Virus record (IMG/VR): IMGVR_UViG_3300009285_000830
Span: 1 to 25,606 of that record
Direction: 5' to 3' (one strand)
DNA from: a virus
DNA length: 25,606 nucleotides
In this document: one piece after another, positions 22,408 through 24,918 of the stretch
Numbering within the stretch: position 1 is the stretch's first letter
Layout of the letters: the number at the start of each line of letters is the position of its first letter
Notes under the pieces: generated by a model
What the model saw: only the letters and a program-made list of their open reading frames with translations
Database searches by the model: none
What the model was told of the DNA's origin: nothing
Made by a program: the position numbers and the translations under genes

Positions 22408-24549
22408 TTACATCTTATACATATCAGAAAATCTATTCGTACCCTTTTTACTGTTCTTAATTCTAATCTCACGTGGAGATAAAGGCTCACTGATTTGTTT
22501 TTTTATGCTGTCTTTTCTCGGTGTTGCAAACTTATGGATAAAGTACCTTGTGCAGTCACAATTTGAAACTAATATACCATTTGCAAAATACATTCCATAC
22601 TCAGTTTTAAGATTGTAAACATCTTCTTCTTCTCCTAAGTGCTGCCTGTCTGCAATTATTCCGACTCTTTCCTCGATGACAATACTTTGTTCTTTCTGGA
22701 AATGGTGTTTTAAATTCTTCTCCACAGATCTCACAAATTTTTGAGTAATATTTTTTATTTTCCCAAGCCATTTTGCCAATCCTTTTATGGAATTTAATAC
22801 CTTCTTCGGTACCATGCCAGATGCTTGCAAATTTTCTAGCATATTCAATGTTTTTCTTAGCAATCGGAAGCATCTCCTCGTAGTGTCTTTGAGCATGTTC
22901 TTTAGTTGATACCAATTCCAAATTATCCAATTCATTATTAAGAAAATTATTATCTTTATGATGAATATGATAACCCTTAGGAATTTCACCATTATATTTC
23001 CCCCAAATATATCGATGTAGTCGTTCTGTTCTATAGCCTGTCTTAGCCGTCTGAGAACACATAAAATACTTTCTAAGCTCCATCTTCTTCGATTGTGGAT
23101 ACCTTCTGAAACTGATCCCATCAATAATGATTTTCTCTGATTTAATTTGCATACATAATCATTATATCGCAAAGCATCAAACCTAACAAGCCCTCTTTGT
23201 GTAAAAATCTTATGACTACCTGTAATCCCCCCATTACCAAATCTAAAAACTTTTGAATGCCCAGTTTTTCCACATTCTAATACTTTAGAAACTCCAAATG
23301 GAGTTCTAACTCTATCCCCCTTTTTTATCTTATATATAGGTACTTCCCCATTATCTGTTAAAACCTTTACATCTTTTGTAAAACATGCGTGGTTGAAATA
23401 ATCCTCTGGGAGATCACTTTTATTCTTATCATCTCTACTGTCTTCTGGATACCGATAGTTTTCAAACTCATCGATTGTGTTGATACAATTCTTATCAACA
23501 AACAATCTAGGTTTCCCATTCGCTCTAACTTGCAAAAAGTTTCTAACTTGCTCAATACCAGCTTGAATTGAACCAGGCCCTTTGATACAGGCCTGCACTT
23601 CAATCCCCTTAACCATCATGTCTTTGATCATTTGGGGATTAGCTGAGTCACCTAAACTCCATTTGTATTTCTCACCAAAGCTTAGTGCCTTAATCATTTC
23701 AGCATGATAGTCCGTTGGTTGCTCTGCCTCATAATGTTCACGATAAATATAAACATTTGAATCGAAATCGACAGCAATCCACAAACAACAAAACGGATCA
23801 TTATAGCCCCAGTCGATTGATCTATAGAGTGCCCAACCAGGTTTAAGCTTAACATCAATGACGTGCACATTGCGATCAAAGTCACGATAAACTAATCCTG
23901 AAAACTTTCTAAATATTCCACGGTATCGCATGTCAAACATCTCTTCACTTAAAGTTTGTTTCATGCGTTCGTACTCCTCTTTTGGAAAGTACGGAGAATC
24001 AATCGAAGAGAACGAGATAACATCATAACTTTTATTACCTGATTCAAACTGTTTAACAAAATCATTCCTCACCCAATTCATTGAATAAGGTGTAGTTGTG
24101 AGCATCGCCTCGCCCATCTCGATTGCAAGTCTAGCTTGTAGAACAATCCAAGCCATCGACTTCATCTGACCAGCCTCATCAAGCCAAGCTGACTTCAGTG
24201 TCATCCCTTCAAGCCCTACAGGGTTCTCCGTTGATCTGATAAATATTTTTCCACCACCTGGGAGATCAATAACACCATCCTGTTTTTTGTAGTATTTTAA
24301 TAAGGTTGGCCATAACTCAAAGAATTTCGGCAATGTTGATTGAGATAGAATTTTATAAGTAGGTGCAGCTATAAGATGGTTCTTATTTTGCATACTCAAA
24401 GCTCGAACCCCCAACCACAAAGCCCCGCAAACCGTTTTACCACTCTGAACTCCTGCTATTAATGCTTTGAATCTGGAAGTACTCTCAAAAATCCTCGTCT
24501 GATACTTGTGAAGTTTGATACTTAATTGAGTTGTGTTTGATTCTGTCAA
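22408..24549 (-). CDS. terL: Terminase large subunit interrupted by an intein
   Basis: A 713-residue precursor that becomes a 438-residue DNA-packaging motor after removal of a 275-residue intein. The ATPase domain shows Walker A AGVQSGKT (residues 32-39), Walker B LKSAWLDEAG with the catalytic Glu, and coupling motif TTTPYSMNW. The nuclease domain shows SIDWGYNDP (first Asp) and LGDSANP (second Asp). The third acidic motif, NHA-C-D-C-T-R-Y, is split by the intein between A388 and the C-extein C664. The start is TTG at 24549; an in-frame TAA lies just upstream and the next Met is residue 53, past the Walker A motif, so the TTG is the best choice. The small-terminase candidate lies upstream and the portal downstream. 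Confidence 0.88.
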   Translation of the reverse strand: MTESNTTQLSIKLHKYQTRIFESTSRFKALIAGVQSGKTVCGALWLGVRALSMQNKNHLIAAPTYKILSQSTLPKFFELWPTLLKYYKKQDGVIDLPGGGKIFIRSTENPVGLEGMTLKSAWLDEAGQMKSMAWIVLQARLAIEMGEAMLTTTPYSMNWVRNDFVKQFESGNKSYDVISFSSIDSPYFPKEEYERMKQTLSEEMFDMRYRGIFRKFSGLVYRDFDRNVHVIDVKLKPGWALYRSIDWGYNDPFCCLWIAVDFDSNVYIYREHYEAEQPTDYHAEMIKALSFGEKYKWSLGDSANPQMIKDMMVKGIEVQACIKGPGSIQAGIEQVRNFLQVRANGKPRLFVDKNCINTIDEFENYRYPEDSRDDKNKSDLPEDYFNHACFTKDVKVLTDNGEVPIYKIKKGDRVRTPFGVSKVLECGKTGHSKVFRFGNGGITGSHKIFTQRGLVRFDALRYNDYVCKLNQRKSLLMGSVSEGIHNRRRWSLESILCVLRRLRQAIEQNDYIDIFGGNIMVKFLRVIIFIIKIIIFLIMNWIIWNWYQLKNMLKDTTRRCFRLLRKTLNMLENLQASGMVPKKVLNSIKGLAKWLGKIKNITQKFVRSVEKNLKHHFQKEQSIVIEERVGIIADRQHLGEEEDVYNLKTEYGMYFANGILVSNCDCTRYFIHKFATPRKDSIKKQISEPLSPREIRIKNSKKGTNRFSDMYKM
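22561..23385 (-). mobile_element. Intein in terminase large subunit
   Basis: Residues 389-663 of the terminase precursor. The first residue is Cys389 (CFTKDVKVLTDNGEVPI), and block B has the T-G-S-H motif (residues 443-446) in GITGSHKIFTQRG. The C-terminal blocks read DVYNLKTEYGMYFANGILVS, then Asn663, and the next extein residue is Cys664. The penultimate residue is Ser rather than the usual His, as in a subset of phage inteins. Blocks A/B and F/G are in one frame. The stretch between (about residues 468-636) has no recognisable endonuclease in that frame because the endonuclease is encoded in another frame (22607-23152). Splicing is predicted, not shown. Confidence 0.85.
22607..23152 (-). 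CDS. HNH homing endonuclease nested out of frame inside the intein
   Basis: A 181-residue protein starting at ATG 23152. An in-frame TGA lies two codons upstream (23161-23159), so it begins here rather than as a continuation of the intein. The N-terminus has an IIIDGISFRRYPQ beta segment. The HNH core is RLHRYIWGKYNGEIPKGYHI, then HHKDNNFLNNELDNLELVS and KEHAQRH, with H64/H65 and the Asn-rich loop as expected of the HNH_3 family. A C-terminal zinc-ribbon-like module has C140, C143, C158 and C167 and ends in Arg repeats. It presumably cuts intein-free terminase genes to drive homing. It lacks an SD sequence, like most genes here. The frame is shifted by 2 (or -1) relative to the surrounding intein. 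Confidence 0.8.
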   Translation of the reverse strand: MQIKSEKIIIDGISFRRYPQSKKMELRKYFMCSQTAKTGYRTERLHRYIWGKYNGEIPKGYHIHHKDNNFLNNELDNLELVSTKEHAQRHYEEMLPIAKKNIEYARKFASIWHGTEEGIKFHKRIGKMAWENKKYYSKICEICGEEFKTPFPERTKYCHRGKSRNNCRQAALRRRRRCLQS

Positions 24550-24624: not shown

Positions 24625-24918
24625 TTATTCATGAGTTAGCTCAATTTTAACTAATAATTCATTCTTGATCTCACCTTTAATGTCTTTTCTTTCAAGTTTA
24701 GGCCATTTATACTCCCTCCATCCCTCAAACCTATTCATAAATTCTAGCTCAGCCTTACTTAATTCTTCTCCTCTTGCAAGTTTATCTAACTTATTCGAGT
24801 ATTCCTCCAAGGCTCCGTCACCTATAACTGAAAAGAATACCTCACTCATCCGATTAAGATTTTCTTTTTTAGATTTATGTGAGTCAACCCACAATGTATT
24901 CCCTTTTTGAAATGGCAT
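24625..24918 (-). CDS. terS: Probable terminase small subunit
   Basis: A 97-residue protein starting at ATG 24918, first gene of the packaging block. It begins MPFQKGNTLWVDSHKSKKEN, a basic start often seen in small terminases of this type. Helices follow (NRMSEVFFSVIGDGALEEYS, then LDKLARGEELSKAELEFMNR and FEGWREYKWPKLER). The 'F-x-x-w-x-P-K-L-x-R' ending followed by an acidic beta tail resembles small terminase C-termini that contact the large subunit. The 75-base gap to the terL start agrees. It is short for the family, so the identification rests on context plus style rather than a firm signature. It would recognise the packaging site, perhaps in the spacer just upstream. Confidence 0.6.
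   Translation of the reverse strand: MPFQKGNTLWVDSHKSKKENLNRMSEVFFSVIGDGALEEYSNKLDKLARGEELSKAELEFMNRFEGWREYKWPKLERKDIKGEIKNELLVKIELTHE

Follow-up and report, generated by a model that had tools for sequence, protein, structure and literature searches.

Fractured genes, reportedly described by Dassa in 2009, are known in which an endonuclease gene separates the two halves of a split intein, and the endonuclease family concerned is said to be different from the HNH family treated here. In canonical inteins, such as the LAGLIDADG inteins known from the gene for the terminase large subunit (terL) (PMC5050341), a Hint domain and a homing endonuclease occupy a conserved site and the endonuclease is read in the intein frame. 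The closest arrangement in print is the ShiLan element, in which a mobile HNH gene occupies the third frame of an open host gene, a methylase, without an intein (PMC11855218). According to that report, the element lacks a splicing domain and is believed to remain part of the protein, and the authors propose leaderless translation of the HNH gene; by our own arithmetic its GTG at bases 18-20 is equally at offset +2. Among titles and beginnings of abstracts no paper on an out-of-frame HNH gene inside an intein was found, although Gosselin et al. 2025 (bioRxiv 10.1101/2025.01.02.630785, by the group behind the ShiLan report and titled on non-canonical architecture in actinobacteriophage inteins) and Gorbalenya 1998 (Non-canonical inteins) may overlap.

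The window, the whole stretch of DNA analysed here, is a virus record of 25,606 bases, in which terL and a nested HNH gene both lie on the minus strand. Very probably, this locus is a mobile terminase intein with its homing endonuclease gene overprinted in another frame and separately expressed. Its features are the following.

22408-24549, minus strand: terL (terminase large subunit), one open frame through the intein, ORF of 713 aa; PHROG terminase E 2.6e-45, Pfam Terminase_6N E 1.9e-12
22561-23385, minus strand: intein, 275 aa, CFTKDVKV ... GILVSN; limits from the translation, intein_Cterm, the alignment of relatives and the model
23140-23385, minus strand: intein N part (blocks A and B), extent of our own profile match
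22558-22623, minus strand: intein C part (blocks F and G) including Cys+1, extent of our own profile match; TIGR01443 19.6 bits
22558-22560, minus strand: Cys+1, directly after the intein
22607-23152, minus strand: HNH endonuclease gene, 181 aa, nested at offset +2; ORF, HNH_3, PHROG HNH E 4.8e-25
23161-23166, minus strand: possible -10 box TATAAT, 8 nt before the HNH ATG
23184-23189, minus strand: possible -35 box TTGTTA, spacer 17

The first-pass annotation, made from the sequence alone, had placed intein blocks A and B before and blocks F and G after a complete 181-residue HNH protein in a frame shifted by -1/+2, with a TGA barring read-through and a terminase frame free of stops, and each of these statements held. 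In the ORF list the terminase frame runs through 713 codons without a stop, its TTG start at 24549 being the first possible and an uncertain one. The HNH ORF, which starts at +2 (equal to -1) relative to this frame, is complete and matches Pfam HNH_3 with E = 1.6e-15 (56.9 bits against a gathering score of 24.8). It begins behind block B, its last 17 bases overlap the C-part match, and in its frame the codons TAA TGA TTA TGT precede the ATG, so that read-through from upstream is barred by the two stops. The intein blocks are recovered by our own profiles, and the C-terminal end also by NCBIfam intein_Cterm (19.6 bits, above the cut-off of 15.6), while NCBIfam intein_Nterm (11.5 bits against 24.5) and Pfam Hint_2 (20.6 bits against 28.4) stay below their cut-offs. 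Flanked by the terminase residues NHA and CDCTRY, the intein carries the motif residues C1, T55 and H58 (TxxH of block B), N275 and C+1; T55, H58 and N275 are invariant across 56 aligned inteins, and the residue before the terminal Asn, usually His, is Ser in the window.

An AlphaFold model calculated from the 56 inteins aligned in the terminase frame (mean pLDDT 76.3, pTM 0.50) predicts with confidence that the two outer intein parts build a Hint-like core: residues 1-80 and 251-276, with average pLDDT values per block of 90-97, take up a Hint-like arrangement of strands, and the overprinted part, with averages of 43-88, is modelled as mostly helical. The top Foldseek matches are inteins, with the gp41-1 intein as the best PDB match (E = 2.3e-5), which a profile search equally ranks first among solved structures; the HNH profile finds the HNH homing endonuclease 1u3e as its best solved structure, with E = 0.0039 only.

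Set against the known systems, the locus shares with canonical inteins the Hint domain and a presumed homing endonuclease in a conserved site, but its endonuclease is not in the intein frame. Its intein is not divided into two separate genes but is a single unbroken frame, in which it differs from gp41-1, the nearest solved intein and a split one, and from split loci in general, where the HNH gene lies between IntN and IntC. It resembles the ShiLan element in its out-of-frame HNH gene, yet here a Hint domain surrounds the HNH gene, and two registers as well as promoter-like sequences occur, unlike in the ShiLan element as described in PMC11855218. PHROGs 30251 and 35162 match the HNH region when it is read in the terL frame, and thus such readings already reside within public families. 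One IMG/VR contig, L002, encodes a terL protein 100% identical to that of the window; it represents the same virus or one almost identical to it and does not count as independent evidence. Over 6.2 kb the two differ by no mismatch and by one gap opening of 21 bases, outside terL. Upstream of terL, a 97-aa ORF (24625-24918, minus strand), which found no match in Pfam, faces an 81-aa ORF on the opposite strand (24665-24910, plus strand).

With the intein as query, tblastn identified the Rhodobacteraceae phage MD07, aligned over the whole intein, and the Acinetobacter phage Highwayman, and with the HNH protein MD07, Highwayman, TJE1 and the unverified scaffold MT838676; each of these four has a single open intein frame with the HNH gene at +2. 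IntN, HNH and IntC were found together in 68 of the best 80 viral loci and 17 of the 56 genome loci from scans with an HNH profile, and in 79 of the best 80 viral loci from a scan with an intein profile; a second HNH profile, built from split-like and +1 forms, contributed its best 80 loci. Altogether 304 HNH genes were classified and grouped into 157 clusters (70% nt), each judged by its representative. Since the scans favour relatives of their own queries and the best 80 loci per scan were kept, the proportions that follow are not prevalences.

Both intein halves surround the HNH gene in 128 of the 157 clusters. Among these 128, the HNH gene lies at +2 in an unbroken intein frame in 100 and at +1 in 11; in two more (L028, L124) it is at +2 relative to IntC and the N half lies in another frame, and 15 are interrupted and split-like. 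The dual-frame intein proposed by the first-pass annotation is supported, and the check that it had suggested, whether relatives keep both frames open, came out in its favour. An HNH gene in the intein frame, which it had named as a finding that would speak against its reading, was looked for and occurs in none of the 128 clusters, and intein-frame stops, named equally, are confined to the separate 15 split-like clusters, which resemble split loci. Consistent with separate production of IntC, 12 of these 15 have an ATG, GTG or TTG start codon 24-27 nt upstream of the C-half match. The pipeline is able to detect in-frame HNH genes, as in L135 (L135:1-3940), a canonical intein in a ribonucleotide reductase (identified by eye, without a family search) on an Armatimonadetes contig, where the other frames hold 33 stops against 33 expected and 25 against 21 expected; an additional intein C end is present near the start of this contig.

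As far as the tests reach, the genes that carry the insertions encode terminases, with phrog_2 alone matching 61 of 88 N-side exteins. Three loci carry two +2 inteins within one open frame (L089:535-3553, L105:1330-4732, L151:933-4152), and in L228:512-3743 one open frame contains two overprinted inteins, one per register (+2 and +1). Overprinted inteins are also present on two contigs with archaeal titles (L096:2731-3706 and L108:2710-3676; Thermoplasmatales, Nitrosotalea), which are probably archaeal viruses.

Whether the open intein frame could be a product of chance, an ordinary HNH gene happening to leave it free of stops, was assessed by shuffling synonymous codons within each HNH gene. 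For the window alone 2.4 stops are expected and the frame is open with P = 0.017, which is suggestive; in favour of chance, +2 is the frame with fewer expected stops. The first-pass annotation had cautioned that openness alone is not proof, and the relatives settle the question. Across 103 clusters at +2 the intein frame contains 0 stops against 291 expected, with 2106 against 2135 in the remaining frame; across the 11 clusters at +1 it contains 0 against 107, with 132 against 117 in the other frame, so that in this class it is the alternative frame that is kept clear of stops. These zeros are partly circular, as the open classes were defined by openness, and the fair figure is that 114 of 132 clusters with an intein half are open against a summed chance of about 6. 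No avoidance is seen in the split-like clusters (97 stops against 102 expected, 219 against 256 in the other frame) nor in 25 clusters of free-standing genes (185 against 185, and 564 against 594), as in an earlier count of 32 free-standing genes (199 against 194, none open). Only one of the 304 genes, L121, has an open frame although no intein half was detected beside it; 0.3 stops are expected there. Chance is refuted by the relatives and retains a practically negligible probability. The same is true of assembly or sequencing indels that shifted an in-frame HNH gene out of frame, a reading we hold to be extremely improbable. Most relatives are metagenome contigs and the N half is broken in L028 and L124, yet the same offsets recur in the named phage genomes MD07, Highwayman and TJE1 and in 100 clusters, every case would call for two indels, and stop avoidance requires long evolution.

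Over 42 locus pairs, which include redundant contigs and therefore give approximate figures, divergence at HNH codon positions 1, 2 and 3 amounts to 0.287, 0.244 and 0.447, and that of IntN at intein positions 1, 2 and 3 to 0.299, 0.246 and 0.481; the HNH proteins are 62% identical, against 43% for the intein frame over the HNH region and 58% for IntN. HNH is a maintained, conserved protein. Strong selection on the amino acids of the linker is unlikely, because divergence peaks at the third HNH positions, which are the second positions of the intein frame; the overprinted linker seems to be free apart from stops, with the intein frame mainly kept open. The statistics show selection both to preserve the HNH protein and to keep the intein frame clear of stops.

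Signals at the HNH start were compared in 90 representatives, 75 of which have an ATG near the start, 28 with and 47 without a Shine-Dalgarno sequence (a match of at least 4). At 23 of the 47 starts without a Shine-Dalgarno sequence, and at none of the 28 with one, a -10-like hexamer stands exactly 6 nt upstream of the ATG; any other spacing is seen in at most 6 of the 47. Against sequences re-coded synonymously for the intein, and with a hand-written score matrix, promoter scores are raised in the former group (mean 7.1 against 3.9, Fisher p = 2.5e-13; 17 of 47 below 0.05, the other 30 not individually significant) and not in the latter (p = 0.15; 1 of 28 below 0.05). The +1 representatives are without a Shine-Dalgarno sequence in 11 of 11 cases, with the box at 6 nt in four and at 9 nt in four. 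Several members display TTGACA-N16/17-(TATAAT or TACACT)-N6-ATG, in part built by the codons of an LDALRYGD-like stretch of the intein. For the window by itself the promoter score is not significant (p = 0.08), and a plain promoter scan of its stretch returned fewer promoter-like sites (5) than shuffles (8.9). This sequence pattern suggests a leaderless or nearly leaderless HNH mRNA from a promoter inside the intein. Programmed frameshifting, weighed here from upstream stops only, would instead produce HNH fused to the terL N part and IntN. It would agree with the constant offset within each class and with the 12 of 90 representatives whose HNH frame extends upstream for over 90 nt without a stop; 45 of the 90, on the other hand, have an HNH-frame stop within 15 nt of the HNH match, promoter or Shine-Dalgarno signals are found at the HNH start and both registers occur, and we regard frameshifting as very unlikely.

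Mobility of the element is suggested by the relatives of Highwayman. A 1971-base stretch around its intein has matches in 78 Acinetobacter phage records, of which one, Highwayman itself, covers at least 80% of the stretch; 29 other records among the matches listed cover 49-50% of it in two pieces. The empty-site junction was read in two of them, Acba_21 and MRABphi22, against which Highwayman has a precise insertion of 981 nt (327 aa) with a +1 Leu to Cys exchange. Identity to Acba_21 per 100 bases is 95, 97, 100, 100, 100 upstream and 93, 100, 100, 100 downstream, a divergence near the insertion site as expected of co-conversion; the comparison with MRABphi22 (95, 92, 93, 99, 100 and 88, 97, 90, 91) is less clear, its divergence not being confined to the site. 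A contrasting proposal holds that HNH is kept for packaging with the terminase, mobility being secondary or lost. HNH proteins that aid the terminase are cited in PMC11855218 and PMC12613952, and free-standing relatives lie directly 3' of an intein-free terL in L022, L101, L042, L102 and L009. The patchy presence of the element, the precise empty sites with local divergence in Highwayman's relatives and the several insertion points within terL argue against this role, which we judge to be quite improbable. In the Acinetobacter phage BP10, a related free-standing HNH gene (L008:2498-3139) is located just upstream of terS, and its terL is annotated without the extra length of Highwayman's terL. 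In Ec1-ASingh (L009:4593-5426), an apparent intein N end is seen in a head-morphogenesis-like gene downstream of terL and the free-standing HNH gene.

To return to the overprinted mobile intein, the arrangement is found repeatedly, in many unrelated phages, and selection appears to maintain it. Ribosomes would read terL straight through and translate the HNH DNA as a linker, roughly 150 residues long, within the Hint domain, and, judging from motifs and model, the Hint halves would fold around this linker and splice. HNH would be a product of its own, translated from a start codon within the intein; many members would use a nested promoter whose transcript has no leader or almost none, and others a start preceded by a Shine-Dalgarno sequence. 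The enzyme presumably cleaves intein-free terL where the intein inserts, and repair would copy intein and HNH into the cut gene, of which one relative displays the precise empty site.

On the HNH trees, free-standing, overprinted and split-like forms are intermixed. The window groups with L011, L017, L012 and L013 (SH-aLRT 99), in a second tree without L013. A set of 31 rows, with support label 97 under midpoint rooting, contains 11 +1, 10 +2, 9 split-like and one free form, and the +1 class requires 6 changes on the tree, 2 of them forced by starred branches. With weak deep branches, long branches that meet and re-rooting at the midpoint, the direction of change between the forms is not readable. 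The intermediate between states envisaged by the first-pass annotation fits this mixture of forms. The free-standing L022 shares a single-linkage cluster with 50 overprinted genes, a cluster counted as free because L022 is its representative; a recent switch between forms was considered here and rejected, as the longest matches are only 66-68% identical. HNH genes of this family have been seated beside terL, where they are not inside an intein and do not avoid stops, as well as between split-like halves and, out of frame in either register, within an intein. That the arrangement is common, that both out-of-frame registers are used and that a promoter-like sequence often lies inside the intein are additions to the earlier reading.

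On balance we incline to a broader interpretation, in which overprinting would be a third, widespread union of endonuclease and intein beside the in-frame fusion and the split locus, with one stretch of DNA carrying the Hint protein, the promoter and start of the endonuclease and the endonuclease in another frame; free, overprinted (in two registers) and split-like forms would interconvert, and a stop in the overprinted frame could lead to natural split inteins. Should this hold, the mobility enzyme of many phage terminase inteins is encoded in an overlapping frame that one-frame surveys would miss, and a single stretch of DNA acts at once as a splicing domain, as a promoter and as the start of a further gene. 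Equally, a large natural data set on overlapping genes would become available, with the two registers and the split-like and free-standing relatives as built-in controls, and the route to natural split inteins would become testable. The HNH genes of L116, L118 and L121, on Selenomonadales/Quinella contigs, show repeated C-terminal profile matches, as if zinc-finger units had multiplied.
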